From the NCBI RefSeq assembly GCF_000374565.1, contig NZ_KB894691.1:22600-86599 (forward strand): a stretch of DNA of 64,000 bases, in the 5' to 3' direction. The position numbers were made by a program, and so were the translations under genes. This DNA comes from Siminovitchia fordii DSM 16014 = CIP 108821. GTDB lineage: Bacteria > Bacillota > Bacilli > Bacillales > Bacillaceae_C. The notes under the pieces were generated by a model. The model made no database searches. It saw only the letters and a list, made by a program, of their open reading frames with translations, and was not told where the DNA came from. Position 1 is the first letter of the stretch, and the number at the start of each line of letters is the position of its first letter. Shown piece by piece: positions 6,153-50,510 of the stretch.

Positions 6153-7566
6153 AGAGCTCGTTACAAAACCGGTGGAAAAATTGGCGCCGCTCCTTGAAAA
6201 GAAAGAAATTTCCTCACTTGAATTGACGAAAGCAGTGCTCGACCATGCTGAAGCCCTCAATGATACAATCAATGCTTATGTCAGTTTCAGACGCGACAAA
6301 GCGGAAAAAGAAGCGGAGCAGGCGGATAAAGAGATTGCAGCCGGCAATTACAAAGGAATGTATCACGGGATTCCGATGGCGATAAAAGATAATATTTATT
6401 TTAAAGATGAAGTGACGACGATGAGCTCTAAAATCCATGGAGAGTTTGTTTCCGATTATGACGCCACCGTCATTTCAAAAATGAGAGAAGCCGGAATCGT
6501 TTTCACCGGAAAATTGAACATGCATGAATATGCATGGGGAATCACCAATAATAGCCCGCATTTCGGCCCTGTCAGAAACCCATGGAATCTTGAAAAAATT
6601 CCTGGCGGATCAAGCGGAGGCTCCGGTGCAGGGGTAGCCGCGGACATGACGGTGGCAACACTTGGAACGGATACGGCAGGGTCCATCCGCATCCCATCGT
6701 CCTCCTGCGGGATCGTCGGCCTCAAGCCAACCTTTGGCCGGGTGAGTAAGTACGGATGCTTTCCGCTAGCCTGGTCACTCGACCATATCGGACCGATGAC
6801 AAAGACTGTAAGAGATGCAGCGGGCCTGTTGGAGATCATTGCGGGATATGATCCAAACGACCCAACATCTGCCAATGCGCCAACGGAAGAATATACATCC
6901 AAGCTGACTGGTGATGTGAAAGGCCTTGTCATCGGAATTAACGAAGAGTACTACTTCAAGGATGTGGACTCCGATGTTGAAAAGCTTGTCAGACAAGCGA
7001 TCCATACTCTTGAAAGCCAAGGGGCAAAGGTGGAGAAAGTTGAAATCCCTGCGCTCCAATATTCTGAATATGCAGAGCTCGTCACCTCCCTGTCGGAAGC
7101 GTCGGCTATCCACCATCGCAACCTGCAAAAACGTCCGGATGATTTCGGTGATGATATCCGCTTGCTCTTTGAGCTTGGAGAACTGTTCTCCTCTGTAGAT
7201 TACTTACAGGCACAGCAGCTCCGCCGCCAGCTGAAGCAGGATTTCAAGAGAGCTTTCGAAAAAGTGGACGTCCTGATGGCACCGACACTGCCGGTCATGC
7301 CGCCTGATATCGGTAGCGACTTTGCTGATCTGAACGGAAAGCAGGTCGATCTCATCGATAACTTCATCCGCTTCATGGGACCGTGCAATCTAGCCGGGCT
7401 GCCGGCCATGACGGTACCATGTGGATTGAAAAACGGAATGCCGGTCGGGTTGCAGATCATCGGTCCAGCTTTCTGCGAAAGCACTGTGCTCAACGCAGGC
7501 TATGCCTTCGAGCAGACCGATCCGTTAAAAGGAAAAAAAGCTGAAATGGCAAGTCCGGTTAAATAA
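6145..7566 (+). CDS. Amidase-signature family hydrolase (GatA/AtzE-like)
   Basis: A 473-aa cytoplasmic enzyme of the amidase-signature family. The Ser-cisSer-Lys triad is readable: Lys81 in AIKDNIYF, Ser156 in PGGSSGGSGAG and nucleophile Ser180 in TDTAGSIRIP. The family hydrolyses amides or transfers ammonia. Without gatB or gatC nearby and under an AmiC-like regulator, a catabolic amidase acting on a small amide or carbamoyl compound is most likely. The TTG start at 6145 has GGAGGTGA (6132-6139). An upstream in-frame ATG at 6082 lies inside the preceding gene and lacks a ribosome site. A strong terminator follows. The substrate cannot be read from sequence. Confidence 0.9.
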   Translation: MSKELVTKPVEKLAPLLEKKEISSLELTKAVLDHAEALNDTINAYVSFRRDKAEKEAEQADKEIAAGNYKGMYHGIPMAIKDNIYFKDEVTTMSSKIHGEFVSDYDATVISKMREAGIVFTGKLNMHEYAWGITNNSPHFGPVRNPWNLEKIPGGSSGGSGAGVAADMTVATLGTDTAGSIRIPSSSCGIVGLKPTFGRVSKYGCFPLAWSLDHIGPMTKTVRDAAGLLEIIAGYDPNDPTSANAPTEEYTSKLTGDVKGLVIGINEEYYFKDVDSDVEKLVRQAIHTLESQGAKVEKVEIPALQYSEYAELVTSLSEASAIHHRNLQKRPDDFGDDIRLLFELGELFSSVDYLQAQQLRRQLKQDFKRAFEKVDVLMAPTLPVMPPDIGSDFADLNGKQVDLIDNFIRFMGPCNLAGLPAMTVPCGLKNGMPVGLQIIGPAFCESTVLNAGYAFEQTDPLKGKKAEMASPVK

Positions 7567-22469: not shown

Positions 22470-23283
22470 CGTAATCCTCCCTTGTCCAATGTCCTTGATC
22501 CAGCCCTTCTTGATAAAAAATCTTCACCTGGCTTACCGTTTCATTTCCTTCCCTCTTTATTATCAACCCGCTTCTGCTGCCAAACTGTTCTGTCAAACGG
22601 GAATGGACATTTTTAAGCCCAATATGAAGATGTTCTTCGGCGGATGGAATACCTTTCTTCCAATCTTCAAAGCCTTCAATCACTTCATCGCTTATCCCCA
22701 CACCATCATCTCGTATTTCGATGCATAAAGCGTCTGGGCCGGATGCAGCCGAAAGTGTGATACGCCCTCCGTCAATCGCCGGCTCGATACCATGAATGCA
22801 GGCATTCTCGACCAAAGGCTGGATCACGAGCATCGGAATTTTTTTGTCCAGTAAATTTCCGGGCATGTCCAACGTCCAGTCAAGCCTGTCTCCGAAACGA
22901 AGCTTTTGTATGGACAAATATTGTTCAGCGTATGTCATCTCGTCTTTTAATGGTATTAGTGAATCCTCGTGTTCCAAATGGTAGCGCAGCAGAGACGATA
23001 CCGAGTAGATAGCCTGCTCGGCTTCTTTATTTTTCTCCAACCGGATCAACGTCGAGATGGTATTCAATGTATTAAAAAGAAAATGCGGACGGATTTGAGC
23101 AGATAGATGGAGCAGCTTTGATTCGTTCAACAGAACCTCCAACTCCGCCCTTTTCTTCTCAACTTCCAAATAATCCACTTCTTTTTCTGTGATCAGGATG
23201 ATGACAATGGCGGTGAGGCTAATCATTCCGCCAACAATGCCTAAAATGATCAAAGTCGTAAAAAGGTTGAGTGATAACAGCAT
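22444..23283 (-). CDS. LytS/YesM-type sensor histidine kinase, one membrane helix
   Basis: 279 aa. There is one N-terminal transmembrane segment (~5-32), a short coiled stretch, then His_kinase with the phospho-His in QIRPHFLFNTLN and a HATPase (NACIHG, DDGVGIS). YesM relatives usually have two membrane helices around a large outside sensor; that is missing, so the signal must come from another protein. The frame opens at 23355, but ATG 23283 has GGAGG at ideal spacing and removes an implausible N-terminus that overlaps the permease gene. Confidence 0.9.
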   Translation of the reverse strand: MLLSLNLFTTLIILGIVGGMISLTAIVIILITEKEVDYLEVEKKRAELEVLLNESKLLHLSAQIRPHFLFNTLNTISTLIRLEKNKEAEQAIYSVSSLLRYHLEHEDSLIPLKDEMTYAEQYLSIQKLRFGDRLDWTLDMPGNLLDKKIPMLVIQPLVENACIHGIEPAIDGGRITLSAASGPDALCIEIRDDGVGISDEVIEGFEDWKKGIPSAEEHLHIGLKNVHSRLTEQFGSRSGLIIKREGNETVSQVKIFYQEGLDQGHWTREDYDEDTTSRR

Positions 23284-45860: not shown

Positions 45861-46031
45861 TGTGTTTCCCTCTTTCCGTTTTTTAATTGAAATATACCCC
45901 TAATTAAACATAAGGACCTATTATTTTCAACAGTCAAAATATATAAAAATCTGATTTATCCGACGCAGAACCATACTCCTTATGATAGACTATGAGAATG
46001 GTTGGAATATATACAAAATGGGGGGATTTTG

Positions 46032-47024
46032 TTGAAAGCGATTGTTCACGAAGGAAAGTCAGGAATTGCAGGTCTCTCTTTACGCGAAATGGAAGTTGGC
46101 CAGCCTGGCCCGGGTGAAGTAAGGGTTAAACTAAAAACAGCAGGGATAAATCATCGCGATTTATTTGTTCTTCACCGCCACAAACCAACGGAACCTCCGC
46201 TCATCATTGGTTCCGACGGGGCAGGCATTATCGATGCGATCGGTGACGATGTCACGGGTATCAATGTCGGAGACGAAGTGATCATCAATCCTGGATTGGG
46301 CTGGAAGGAAAAAAGCGATGCTCCGCCTGAGGGATTTGAGATTGTCGGGCTTCCGGACCATGGAACATTTGCCGATTACATCGTGATTCCGGCTGAAAAT
46401 GCAGTCCCCAGACCCCAACATCTGATATGGGAAGAAGCAGGGGTATTTGGACTCGCTGCCCTTACAGGATATCGCGCCCTTTTTACGAGAGGAAATATTA
46501 CACCTGGTAAAACAGTGCTTCTTCCAGGAGTCGGAAGCGGCGTTATCACCTTTATTTTAAAGTTTGCCAAAACAGCAGGAGCCACCGTCTATGTTACATC
46601 ACGTTCAGAAGAAAAACTTCAGCGCGCCCTTGAACTTGGAGCCGATAAAGCGATCAATAGTGATGGCGATTGGAATGAACAGCTAAACGGCGAAAAAGTT
46701 GATTTAGTAATCGAGTCCGTTGGAGCAGCTACTTTCAACAAATCACTCGGCCAGCTCCGCCCAGGGGGAACCATCGTTACCTTTGGAGCTTCCGCGGGAG
46801 ATGAAGTGAGTATTGACCTCAGGAGCTTCTTCTATGGACAGTACAACATGCTTGGCACTACCATGGGAAGTGCCGAAGAGTTCAAAGAGATGATCAAGTT
46901 TGTGGAAAAACATAAAATCAAACCGGAAATCGAAGCTATTTTTCCGTTAAGCAGATACGAAATCGCCTTCAACCGTTTGGAAGAGGCCGAGCAATTTGGA
47001 AAAATAGGATTCTTGATTGATTAA
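46032..47024 (+). CDS. Zinc-type MDR alcohol dehydrogenase/quinone reductase (YogA-like)
   Basis: 330 aa. MDR family: GroES-like N-terminal half with AGINHRDLFVLH and IIGSDGAGIIDAIGDDV, NAD(P)-binding half with VLLPGVGSGVITFILKFAKT and later PGGTIVTFGAS. The usual Cys/His zinc ligands and structural Cys cluster of true zinc enzymes are not evident, so it is nearer the YogA/quinone-reductase-like branch. TTG 46032 has GGGGGG at 6 nt; the ORF opens at 46002. Substrate unknown. Confidence 0.85.
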   Translation: MKAIVHEGKSGIAGLSLREMEVGQPGPGEVRVKLKTAGINHRDLFVLHRHKPTEPPLIIGSDGAGIIDAIGDDVTGINVGDEVIINPGLGWKEKSDAPPEGFEIVGLPDHGTFADYIVIPAENAVPRPQHLIWEEAGVFGLAALTGYRALFTRGNITPGKTVLLPGVGSGVITFILKFAKTAGATVYVTSRSEEKLQRALELGADKAINSDGDWNEQLNGEKVDLVIESVGAATFNKSLGQLRPGGTIVTFGASAGDEVSIDLRSFFYGQYNMLGTTMGSAEEFKEMIKFVEKHKIKPEIEAIFPLSRYEIAFNRLEEAEQFGKIGFLID

Positions 47025-47029
47025 TAATT

Positions 47030-47058
47030 GGGACAGGGCGGCTGCTCTGTCCTGTTTT
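47030..47058 (+). terminator. Terminator of the MDR gene
   Basis: GGACAG/CTGTCC stem (47031-47036, 47047-47052) followed by TGTTTT, a few bases after the stop. Confidence 0.75.
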
Positions 47059-47240
47059 GATTGGAATGGTCTTTGTTAATACAGCCAATTCGATACCTAT
47101 TGGACCTTAAGGAGTTTATATATAATCAACATTTCAACCGTTCAGCCAGGTTAAAGCTTTAGTCGGGCTCGTTTAGAGGAGCTGTTGACATTGCAGATTA
47201 TTCATTCTCAGTTTTAAGCGTTTTCTAATTTATACCCAAT

Positions 47241-47455
47241 CGTGGATAACTTTGTGGATAATTTTACTTCTACGACATGTTTATCTTTTTTTATGTTGGT
47301 AACTCTCTATAGAAAAGTTTGTTTTACCACAATTGTGGATTCATGTAGTGGATATACAGGATTTTGTGGATAACCTCCTGGTAGACCTGTGGATATTTCT
47401 TCTTTTATCAAGAATACCCCAGATTTACATCTACTTTTTTAAAAAATGTGGACAA
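47241..47455. other. DnaA-box cluster
   Basis: At least seven DnaA-box-like 9-mers, all in one orientation (TGTGGATAA on the plus strand). Perfect: 47253-47261 and 47365-47373. 8/9: 47241-47249 (CGTGGATAA), 47388-47396 (TGTGGATAT), 47447-47455 (TGTGGACAA). 7/9: 47334-47342 and 47347-47355. A facing 7/9 site (TTTACCACA) is at 47323-47331. The region is noncoding, A/T-rich and over 100 bp from either gene. Bacillus chromosomes carry such clusters away from oriC, where they titrate DnaA. No dnaA, dnaN or plasmid rep gene is near, so this is probably not oriC. Confidence 0.8.
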
Positions 47456-47589
47456 TCATTTTTTTCTGTGTATAATTTTTGCTCTATTAATGGGTATTCA
47501 TAAGGACACGCTTGGAATTCCTTTTACATATGCTAGTTTTGTAGGGATTTTTTGTGATGTTGTAGAGACCATTATTGGGGTGATGTCAT

Positions 47590-48159
47590 TTGGAGTGGTT
47601 TAGCTCTTTCTTAATAGTAAATTTAATTGGAATAAGTGCAAACCTGGATAATACTGGTGTTGGAATTGCATACGGGCTTAATAATTTTCGAATACCAGCT
47701 TGGTTCAACATGATTATCAATATAATCGGTTTTTTTTACACACTGATTGGTGTTTATCTAGGCTCTTTAATTTCCCAAATTATTTCTCCCGCAGACATTG
47801 GACTAGTTTCATTTTTTGTGTTTTTCTGTATCGGAATAGTGACTATCTGCAATCGCTATTCAAGTTTGATTTATAGGAAAAAGCACTCTGGAACAAAAAT
47901 ACAACAACCTAGGCTGCGAGATGCTATTTTTCTTGGCTTTGCATTGTCGTTTACAAATATTGCTGCTGGAATTGGCCTAGCTGTTGCCTATGACACACTT
48001 ATTTGGGAATTGATCATCAGCATAACATTATGGGGGTATATTTCCATCATGATAGGAAATGCGGTAGGGAAAAATCTTATTTCAAAAATGCTTGGTCGTT
48101 ACTCTTCTCTTGTTGCGGGGCTTATTTTTATTGCAATCGGACTTAACCAATTACTTTAA
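47590..48159 (+). CDS. MntP/YtaF-like membrane protein
   Basis: 189 aa, six hydrophobic segments. The start SANLDNTGVGIAYGLNNFRIP is the MntP/YtaF signature (an acidic residue within the first helix pair), with a related second half. MntP exports Mn2+; YtaF is a sporulation-linked relative of unknown role. TTG start with GGGGTGATG upstream. It lies downstream of the DnaA-box cluster and about 100 bp before a CadD-like gene. Confidence 0.8.
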   Translation: MEWFSSFLIVNLIGISANLDNTGVGIAYGLNNFRIPAWFNMIINIIGFFYTLIGVYLGSLISQIISPADIGLVSFFVFFCIGIVTICNRYSSLIYRKKHSGTKIQQPRLRDAIFLGFALSFTNIAAGIGLAVAYDTLIWELIISITLWGYISIMIGNAVGKNLISKMLGRYSSLVAGLIFIAIGLNQLL

Positions 48160-48262
48160 TATCGTTATTTAACGTTGTTAGTCGAATCATCATTTGGACA
48201 ATTAATATTAATATAATGGAATGATAACTTGAAAAACAAAGAAAGGGATCATTTCCATCGTT

Positions 48263-48859
48263 ATGTTAAGTTTGATTGCTTCCATCATTATATTTTTTAT
48301 CGCGACTAATATTGACGACCTCTTTTTTTTGATGACTTGGTTTTCACAAGTAAAGACAACCGAACAAAAACTATGTATTGTAGCCGGACAATACCTGGGT
48401 TTTATACTCATTTTAATTTTTAGTTTTATCGGCGCTATTGGTGCTGTGCAGCTTTCTGCTGAGTGGATAGGTTTGTTGGGATTAGCTCCCATTTATATTG
48501 GGATCAAATCATTAAGGGACTTGTATCAGGTACGAAAAGATGCTAGCCATAACCTCGGATGGTTATTCAAAGTGGCCACAATCACCTTTGCAAACGGTGC
48601 TGATAATATTGGCGTATATATTCCGTTTTTAGCAATTCATAATCTTGAACGTATTATTTTGCTTCTGGTAATCTTTTTAGTCCTGGTAGCTGTTTGGTGT
48701 TACTTGGGAAATGCCTTAGTTAAGCAACCATTCATTTCCCGCATATTAGAGCTCTACGTTCAAAAGATGGTTCCTTTTGTATTCATAACTCTAGGCATCC
48801 TTATTATGATTAGACAAGGGACATTGATTTATTTTTATAGAGTTCTGCTGATCACTTGA
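48263..48859 (+). CDS. CadD-family cadmium resistance transporter
   Basis: 198 aa, about five to six membrane helices. IFFIATNIDDLFFLMTWFSQ and the internal TITFANGADNIGVYIPF are the two conserved Asp-containing motifs of the CadD (LysE-superfamily) family, which gives Cd2+ resistance or related export. Together with the preceding MntP-like gene it forms a metal-export pair. The ribosome site is weak (AAAGGGATC, far upstream). Confidence 0.85.
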   Translation: MLSLIASIIIFFIATNIDDLFFLMTWFSQVKTTEQKLCIVAGQYLGFILILIFSFIGAIGAVQLSAEWIGLLGLAPIYIGIKSLRDLYQVRKDASHNLGWLFKVATITFANGADNIGVYIPFLAIHNLERIILLLVIFLVLVAVWCYLGNALVKQPFISRILELYVQKMVPFVFITLGILIMIRQGTLIYFYRVLLIT

Positions 48860-48980
48860 ACGGCGCATTGTAACAATATCTGCACATCCTTTTTACATGG
48901 AACTATTCCTCTAACGTTTTGCAATAATGGTTATCCGTATCATGTTTATATGTTCTGTTTTTCTTATCCTGCAAAACAAC

Positions 48981-49008
48981 AAAAACCCTCGATTTATCGA
49001 GGGTTTTT
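48981..49008. terminator. Bidirectional terminator before aspartase end
   Basis: AAAAACCCTCGA/TCGAGGGTTTTT perfect stem (48981-48992, 48997-49008) with a TTTA loop, directly after the aspartase stop on the minus strand. Confidence 0.93.
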
Positions 49009-49011
49009 CTT

Positions 49012-50439
49012 TTATTTTTTCAACAAAGCCGCACCAGCGATGCCAGGATTGGTCATTTCGTGTGCATCCAAAATTTGATCAAGCTCTGCTTCAGTCAGAA
49101 CGCCTAGCTCAAGGCAGAGTTCACGAACAGAACGGCCCGTTTTTAATGCTTCTCCCGCAATGGCAGCCGCAGCTTCGTATCCGATATGCGGATTGACTGC
49201 CGTGATGATGCCAATACTTGACTCTACATAATGCTTCATTCTTTCTTCGTTGGCGGTGATGCCGGAAACGCAATATTCCGTGAACACTCTGAAACCGTTG
49301 GTCATCACTGTGATGGAATCCATCAAATTGTAGACAAGAACCGGTCCCATGACATTCAATTCGAATTGTCCCGCTTCCGAAGCTAGGTTGATTGTTTGGT
49401 CATTTCCGATGACTTGGAATGCGATTTGGTTGATGAGTTCAGCCATAACCGGATTCACTTTTCCAGGCATGATCGATGAACCTGGCTGTCTTGCAGGAAG
49501 ATTGATTTCCGCAAGGCCCGCTTTTGGTCCGGATGCCATGAATCTTAGGTCGTTTGCAATTTTGGACATGTTCGTCATGCAGATTTTCAATGCGGCGGAC
49601 ACTTCTGTGTAAGCATCCGTGTTTTGCGTTGCATCAACCAGATTTTCTGCAGCCACCATTGGCAATCCGCTGATATCTTCCAGGTATTCAACAGCCAGTT
49701 TGATATATTTTGGATCCGCATTTAAGCCTGATCCGACAGCCGTTGCGCCCAAGTTTACTTCATAAAGAGCCTCTTTTGAACGGCGGATGCGCTGAATATC
49801 CCTTTTGATGACACGGCTGTAAGCACCGAACTCCTGGCCAAGGCGGATGGGAACAGCATCCTGAAGATGTGTCCTTCCCATTTTTACTACATGGTCAAAT
49901 TCCTTTTGCTTCTCTTCAAAAGCGGCTTTCATATCTTCCATGACTGACAGCAATCCATCAAGAACATTCAAGACCGCCACATGGATGGCTGTTGGAACAC
50001 TGTCATTAGTCGATTGGGCCATATTCACATGGGAGTTAGGGCTGATTGAGGCGTAATCCCCTTTCTTTTTGCCAAGCAACTCAAGCGCCCGGTTTGCAAT
50101 AACCTCGTTGGCGTTCATATTCATCGATGTACCGGCTCCGCCTTGAATCGGATCCACGATAAATTGATCATGCAGTTTCCCTTCAATGATCTCCTGAGAT
50201 GCCTCAACAATCGCTTGCCCTATTTCTCCCGGCAGCAATCCGACTTCAGTGTTAGCCAGTGCTGCAGCCTTCTTTACAATGGCCAATGCTTTAATCAACT
50301 CTTCATGAAGTTTGTTTCCCGTGATAGGAAAATTTTCCACAGCCCTGAGTGTCTGAATCCCGTAATAAGCATCAACGGGTACATTTTTAGTTCCTAAAAA
50401 ATCTTTTTCCACTCGCGTTTCCATGACTGACGCTTCCAT
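49012..50439 (-). CDS. aspA: Aspartate ammonia-lyase
   Basis: 475 aa, the length of Bacillus aspartase. L-aspartate is split into fumarate and ammonia. It has the fumarase/aspartase signature GSSIMPGKVNP, plus YGIQTLRAVENFPITG, DPIQGGAGTSMNMNANEV, NVNMAQSTNDS-like THVNM region and LNVMGPVLVYN. ATG 50439 is preceded by GGGAGACGG. The frame continues to an ATG at 50475, but that codon lies in the terminator of the MATE gene. No asparaginase gene lies beside it. Confidence 0.93.
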   Translation of the reverse strand: MEASVMETRVEKDFLGTKNVPVDAYYGIQTLRAVENFPITGNKLHEELIKALAIVKKAAALANTEVGLLPGEIGQAIVEASQEIIEGKLHDQFIVDPIQGGAGTSMNMNANEVIANRALELLGKKKGDYASISPNSHVNMAQSTNDSVPTAIHVAVLNVLDGLLSVMEDMKAAFEEKQKEFDHVVKMGRTHLQDAVPIRLGQEFGAYSRVIKRDIQRIRRSKEALYEVNLGATAVGSGLNADPKYIKLAVEYLEDISGLPMVAAENLVDATQNTDAYTEVSAALKICMTNMSKIANDLRFMASGPKAGLAEINLPARQPGSSIMPGKVNPVMAELINQIAFQVIGNDQTINLASEAGQFELNVMGPVLVYNLMDSITVMTNGFRVFTEYCVSGITANEERMKHYVESSIGIITAVNPHIGYEAAAAIAGEALKTGRSVRELCLELGVLTEAELDQILDAHEMTNPGIAGAALLKK

Positions 50440-50472
50440 TTTTCCGTCTCCCATCTGGTATTCTTTTACATG

Positions 50473-50510
50473 CATAAAAGTCTGCCCGGATCAATTTTCA
50501 AGATCCGGGC
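50473..50510 (-). terminator. Terminator of the MATE gene
   Basis: GCCCGGATC/GATCCGGGC perfect stem (50484-50492, 50502-50510) followed on the minus strand by AGACTTTTATG. Confidence 0.8.

Follow-up and report, generated by a model that had tools for sequence, protein, structure and literature searches.

The DNA analyzed here, a 64-kb stretch that we call the window, corresponds to positions 22600 to 86599 of contig C7 in a 4.51-Mb draft genome (the window genome). Between an oxidoreductase gene and a convergent aspartase gene, the two landmarks of the locus, it carries an intergenic cluster of DnaA boxes, followed by an mntP-family and a cadD-like gene (below, mntP and cadD). The site is outside the dnaA-dnaN region, dnaA itself sitting on another contig (C13). 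In window coordinates, the features are as follows.

46002..47024, plus strand: zinc-type alcohol dehydrogenase/quinone oxidoreductase family gene, the upstream landmark; the protein is 79 to 89% identical in the five other genus genomes
47029..47054, plus strand: terminator-like hairpin, 3' of the oxidoreductase gene and 5' of the cluster; a terminator-like hairpin also follows the oxidoreductase gene in the four other cluster-bearing species
47241..47249, minus strand: DnaA box A, TTATCCACG, one mismatch; a box with zero or one mismatch at the equivalent site in 5/5 cluster-bearing genomes
47253..47261, minus strand: DnaA box B, TTATCCACA, perfect, 12 bp from A; a box with zero or one mismatch and the 12-bp spacing from A in 5/5
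47365..47373, minus strand: DnaA box C, TTATCCACA, perfect; a box with zero or one mismatch in 5/5
47388..47396, minus strand: DnaA box D, ATATCCACA, one mismatch, 23 bp from C; at most one mismatch and the 23-bp spacing in 4/5, two mismatches in S. fortis
47447..47455, minus strand: DnaA box E, TTGTCCACA, one mismatch; a box in 4/5, absent in S. fortis
47467..47475, minus strand: DnaA box F, TTATACACA, one mismatch (perfect under TTATNCACA); a box with zero or one mismatch in 5/5
47449..47476, plus strand: predicted promoter-like element, TGGACA-16-TATAAT, an 11/12 match, overlapping boxes E and F and facing mntP
47590..48159, plus strand: MntP-family putative metal efflux gene (YtaF-like, under the YtaF cut-off)
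48263..48859, plus strand: CadD-like cadmium resistance transporter gene (Pfam Cad; under the NCBIfam CadD cut-off)
49012..50475, minus strand: aspartase/fumarase-type lyase gene, convergent, the downstream landmark

The six boxes (47241-47475) each have at most one mismatch to TTATCCACA, two of them are perfect, and all are on the minus strand. An initial annotation of this DNA had counted two perfect and three one-mismatch boxes in 47241-47455, and these are present (perfect at 47253 and 47365; one mismatch at 47241, 47388, and 47447); box F lies beyond that range. Where it gave two 7/9 boxes, the same strand in fact holds three two-mismatch sites (47294, 47334, and 47347), and its single orientation holds for the boxes with at most one mismatch but not for the two-mismatch sites, since those at 47323 and 47405 are on the plus strand. 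Under TTATNCACA, the B. subtilis DnaA-box consensus (PMC4447404), three boxes of the cluster are perfect and an extra one-mismatch site appears on the plus strand at 47230. The gap is noncoding and A/T rich, as first described: there is no open frame of at least 60 codons in 47025-47589, and the G+C content around the cluster is 31 to 35%, versus 38 to 46% in 4-kb steps along the window. A 37-codon open frame just before mntP (47490-47603) has no Pfam match and is unmatched in five other mntP loci. Between cadD and the convergent aspartase gene lies a terminator-like hairpin with a T run on both strands (48981-49008). No Rfam family reached its gathering score in 46000-50500, and no parS site with up to two mismatches was found within the window.

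The initial annotation had raised the question of whether the boxes are more frequent than base composition predicts, and the answer differs for clusters and for single boxes. The real sequence has six same-strand boxes per 240 bp, whereas the maximum was three (seen once) in 60 second-order Markov copies of the 64-kb window and two in 3,000 first-order Markov copies of the local 576 bp; base shuffles of those 576 bp (n = 20,000) gave at most three same-strand boxes, four times. Single boxes, in contrast, were not very unusual, at 28 in the window against 17.6 expected, a count reached in 1 of 100 shuffles, and genome-wide there are 46 perfect boxes versus 37 for the reversed motif. It is the clustering, rather than the number of single boxes, that is the exceptional feature.

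Conservation at the same locus in relatives, which the initial annotation had proposed to check, was found within the genus. The genus is Siminovitchia, and our set of its genomes consisted of the window genome, S. terrae, S. fortis, S. thermophila, Bacillus norwichensis, and Bacillus sp. HF117_J1_D (HF117). All six genomes have the oxidoreductase gene, and five have a cluster 3' of it; the exception is S. thermophila, in which the 238 bp between the oxidoreductase gene and the convergent aspartase gene contain no box. Because S. thermophila lives without the cluster, it is dispensable within the genus. The conserved boxes (A, B, C, and F in 5/5; D and E in 4/5) share one orientation, and HF117 and B. 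norwichensis each have one additional near-box of opposite orientation inside the cluster. Over the aligned region of the five species, mean pairwise identity was 0.88 in box columns versus 0.61 in the spacers, and only 1 of 242 circular shifts of the box mask scored as well as the real placement.

Beyond the genus, a plain DNA search of 149 relatives gave one convincing match (S. terrae, G002) plus short ones; the other three genus copies were found only via the oxidoreductase gene. None of 64 outside-genus loci pairs that gene with an aspartase gene in the fetched DNA (E 1e-20). In the DNA 3' of the oxidoreductase gene, 57 of these loci have at most one near-box per 300 bp, six have two, and one (L063) has three, 1.8 kb away; the 64 include distant homologues (L102, 33% identity; L104, 25%), and the DNA after the gene was shorter than 3 kb in five of them (shortest, 699 bases). 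Before the gene, L045 has three near-boxes, far away. Also 5' of the gene, L067 (Bacillus sinesaloumensis) and L069, L072, and L083 (Fredinandcohnia onubensis) have three to five TTATCCAGA/TTATCCAAA near-boxes at 53-bp multiples (in L083, 5385-5605), perhaps a tandem repeat. As judged from sequence, then, the cluster is real, conserved, and lineage specific.

What follows the cluster is much less constant. An intact acetyltransferase (GNAT) gene comes next in B. norwichensis and S. fortis; the GNAT gene of S. terrae has a stop codon and a broken frame (L037 7293-7705), and that of HF117 is reduced to its start at 7292 and first codons (L036 7292-7376). The window genome has mntP-cadD in place of the GNAT gene, and S. 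thermophila has neither GNAT, its remains, nor mntP-cadD at the locus. Because the boxes persist while the downstream gene decays or differs, their role would seem to lie in binding DnaA as such. The mntP and cadD genes are probably later arrivals. No match to either was found around the site in the fetched DNA of the five other genus genomes (for B. norwichensis, readable to ~640 bp past the cluster), and none of five mntP loci elsewhere has a cluster, in keeping with the earlier remark that the neighboring metal genes have no obvious link to the boxes, at least as regards origin. DNA similarity to mntP of other genomes starts at the mntP start in four of the five loci, with no DNA match in the fifth; cadD stands beside mntP on the same strand in two of the five (one of them S. 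thermophila, at a different place) and nearby on the opposite strand in one.

Several ways in which the cluster might have traveled were considered and rejected. Carriage with the GNAT gene was one; GNAT matches occur in 95 of the 149 genomes; among the loci retrieved, from 30 places, the 28 best outside the genus have at most two near-boxes per 300 bp. Carriage with mntP was another, and the five mntP loci elsewhere show no boxes grouped together. A small transposon was suggested by an imperfect inverted repeat that brackets the cluster (47216-47238/47491-47513, 23 nt, 78% complementary); there is no second copy in the genome, only 22- to 28-base matches, and the strand showed no better folding than shuffled copies (z = -0.74; 23 of 100 at least as good). 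Because its right arm lies in DNA unshared with the other species, the repeat is probably due to chance or the trace of an insertion.

To place the locus on the chromosome, we used the genes of contig C7, whose minus strand also bears cwlD, an Mrp/SalA-like gene, rocF, sigW, cdaA, and glmM. Moving away from oriC, the B. subtilis chromosome has cwlD, sigW, cdaA, and glmM in that order. On C7 the cwlD-sigW-cdaA-glmM order runs towards the cluster, which is 63 kb beyond glmM, a distance measured in this one genome (glmM and the cluster locus fall on separate contigs in each of the five other genus genomes). The G+C skew is negative in all 12 full 16-kb steps of C7, which would fit entry of replication forks at the high end of the contig. 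Gene order and strand imply that oriC is on the cwlD/sigW/cdaA/glmM side of the cluster. The start of glmM is 179 to 191 kb from that of dnaA in five of six relatives (G009, G010, G014, G016, and G017; in G022, they are on separate contigs). Because the cluster is 63 kb beyond glmM, it would lie on the right arm, ~240 to 255 kb from oriC, provided that this gene order is kept; no contig of the window genome spans both oriC and the cluster.

We then took a census of clusters in the window genome, covering ~1.5 kb around each of the 46 perfect boxes with a cut-off of our own choice (three near-boxes per 300 bp); by design, it misses clusters without a perfect box. Groups were found at dnaA-dnaN, upstream of dnaA, at jag/mnmE, at HtrA-like/rlmH, at a spoIIR/ywlC-type site, upstream of tdk, at tsaD/ABC-F (two), at yqeG, and at the window locus. 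We take rlmH to be yydA, tsaD to be gcp, mnmE to be trmE, and the threonylcarbamoyl-AMP synthase gene to be ywlC. According to the ranking in PMC4447404, the eight strongest DnaA regions of B. subtilis in vitro are upstream of dnaA, dnaA/dnaN, ywcI/vpr, gcp/ydiF, trmE/jag, ywlC/ywlB, yqeG/sda, and yydA/yyzF. Seven of the eight have counterparts in the window genome, namely both oriC clusters and five of the six B. subtilis extra-oriC clusters, and the window cluster comes in addition; a ywcI/vpr-type cluster was not met around the 46 perfect boxes. The yqeG group, counted without identification of sda, has only three boxes (one perfect) of mixed orientation. Two boxes of the spoIIR/ywlC group are inside the spoIIR frame, with others in the frame that follows; similarly, the ABC-F frame contains the second of the tsaD/ABC-F groups. 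The tdk site consists of three same-facing boxes (two perfect) immediately 5' of the thymidine kinase gene (L170 1461-1550; G000:C19:47184-47273) and has no entry in the top-20 list of PMC4447404.

Close direct box pairs were also counted across genomes. There were 32 rows in the six genus genomes, with overlapping pairs counted separately (window genome, 7; S. fortis, 4; B. norwichensis, 6; HF117, 6; S. terrae, 7; S. thermophila, 2), and the reversed pattern gave none in any of the six. S. thermophila, scanned genome-wide with this pattern only, has a cluster at L110. In six other genomes of the family, the pattern gave three to nine rows each and the reversed pattern one row in each of two; their distance from dnaA suggests that some of these rows are the mnmE and rlmH clusters. 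In G009, G010, G014, G016, and G017, the interval from 180 to 320 kb on the right side of dnaA contains no row.

Taken together, synteny in five of six genus genomes, the conservation of boxes over spacers, and a same-genome cluster set that largely matches that of B. subtilis support the initial assignment to the extra-oriC type known from Bacillus. We consider it likely that this is a genuine lineage-specific DnaA-box cluster of that kind, binding DnaA and tempering initiation. The DnaA protein of the window genome aligns, over residues 1 to 436 of 438, to 8btg, its best match among solved structures, which we take to be B. subtilis DnaA, and it keeps GGRDHTTVIHA, presumably the motif that reads the DnaA box. 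DnaA would bind the six same-facing boxes cooperatively, spreading from A-B (12 bp) and C-D (23 bp), the two close pairs. If the locus is as near oriC as its gene order indicates, it would be copied early in each round, so that the binding places would double soon after initiation. The doubled places would then draw DnaA from oriC and help to prevent a premature next initiation, and it is in this sense that the cluster may influence initiation timing.

Work on B. subtilis (PMC5295017 and PMC13220808) offers the precedent from which the restraining role named in the initial annotation is carried over: cells without the six extra clusters initiate early. A strong effect requires the loss of all six, and a single cluster restored at various places gives partial relief. 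A passage of PMC13220808 also reports that tenfold overproduction of DnaA in B. subtilis did not cause over-initiation, which argues against simple titration as the main control. Because of this result and of a 9/12 promoter match in S. fortis described below, we hold the DnaA-holding interpretation with slightly less confidence, and control of a downstream gene by the boxes with slightly more, than we otherwise would. The absence of the cluster from S. thermophila, the changes to boxes D and E in S. fortis, and the opposite-facing near-boxes of HF117 and B. norwichensis also weigh against the DnaA-holding interpretation. The kind of cluster is already known; its place at the oxidoreductase gene was not met in the literature searched, and we found no literature on DnaA in Siminovitchia. 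B. subtilis lacks the loci and proteins with which E. coli switches DnaA off (as stated in part of PMC13220808), and how far clusters set timing there is debated. A genus that has most of the known clusters, one at a new place, and one species without that one is a natural comparison, in which the place or presence of the cluster could be compared with initiation mass without strain building.

We doubt, but take seriously, that the cluster is chiefly an operator, comparable to sda or ywlC in B. subtilis, at which bound DnaA controls the downstream gene (mntP-cadD in the window genome, GNAT in some others). A same-strand gene lies 3' of the cluster in three genomes (the window genome, B. norwichensis, and S. 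fortis), the 11/12 promoter match of the window genome overlaps boxes E and F, box F of S. fortis overlaps a 9/12 promoter match that faces the GNAT gene, and DnaA represses or activates at several B. subtilis clusters, according to sections of PMC4447404. However, the boxes are retained in HF117 and S. terrae, where only the first GNAT codons or a broken GNAT gene remain, and each of these two species has one 9/12 match inside the cluster, about the level of shuffled sequences; B. norwichensis, with an intact GNAT gene, has no promoter-like match, and neither the 28 best outside-genus GNAT loci nor the five mntP loci elsewhere have such a cluster. As for the promoter itself, matches of 11/12 quality arose in 36 of 2,000 dinucleotide shuffles of 47200-47589 (plus strand), three matches of 11/12 or better occur in the whole window, and at a looser cut-off there were five promoter-like matches, fewer than the 8.5 found in shuffles. 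Co-option of boxes E and F for control of mntP-cadD in the window genome is thus a weak possibility.

A broader proposal, which we regard as unlikely, is that Siminovitchia has rewired its DnaA sinks: a right-arm cluster would have been gained ~245 kb from oriC, the ywcI/vpr-type cluster would be missing, the number of extra-oriC places would have been kept near six, and the newcomer would also serve as promoter and operator of mntP-cadD in the window species. If this were true, the replication initiator would control manganese and cadmium export in that species.

It is very unlikely that, like datA or DARS of E. coli, the cluster changes which nucleotide DnaA carries instead of simply holding the protein. 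With those loci it shares a noncoding group of boxes outside oriC, and the gcp/ydiF region of B. subtilis favors ATP-DnaA ~16-fold (a value given in part of PMC4447404), but B. subtilis is described, in a passage of PMC13220808, as having no datA, DARS loci, or IHF homologue. Chance, or the DnaA-box-like sites of some other protein, is a highly improbable source of the cluster; the genome count of single boxes barely exceeds that of the reversed motif, but the simulations, the conservation of the boxes, and the match to known clusters all oppose it. That the cluster is a replication origin or its remnant, whether an ectopic oriC or an integrated plasmid or phage origin, can scarcely be right: although box arrays occur at origins and the cluster DNA is A/T rich, three or more consecutive TAN triplets occur within it in none of the five species (the dnaA-dnaN region of the window genome has six in succession near a box), searches of 72,556 plasmid and 50,697 phage records gave no match (E 1e-5), and the identified neighbors are metabolic and transport genes.

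Among known systems, datA of E. coli needs IHF and promotes ATP hydrolysis, neither of which is among the features described here for the Siminovitchia cluster; the two are alike in that datA is a DnaA-box cluster away from oriC, one that lowers initiation (PMC5295017, in the passages on datA). The ywcI/vpr, trmE/jag, ywlC/ywlB, yydA/yyzF, and sda/yqeG clusters of B. subtilis resemble the window cluster in having several close boxes, and four of these five places recur in the window genome; the difference is that no entry in the top-20 table of PMC4447404 is named for the genes of the window place. The gcp(tsaD)/ydiF cluster of B. subtilis differs in its flanking genes; moreover, in the four cluster-bearing species apart from HF117, the Siminovitchia cluster is followed by an additional gene, intact or broken. 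Because a tsaD/ABC-F cluster is present in the window genome as well, the window cluster is not that cluster moved with its genes. The likeness lies in position: the gcp/ydiF cluster is outside oriC, on the right arm by coordinate, and between genes with facing 3' ends (Table 1 of PMC4447404), and the landmark genes here are convergent too, with just a GNAT stub between cluster and aspartase gene in HF117.
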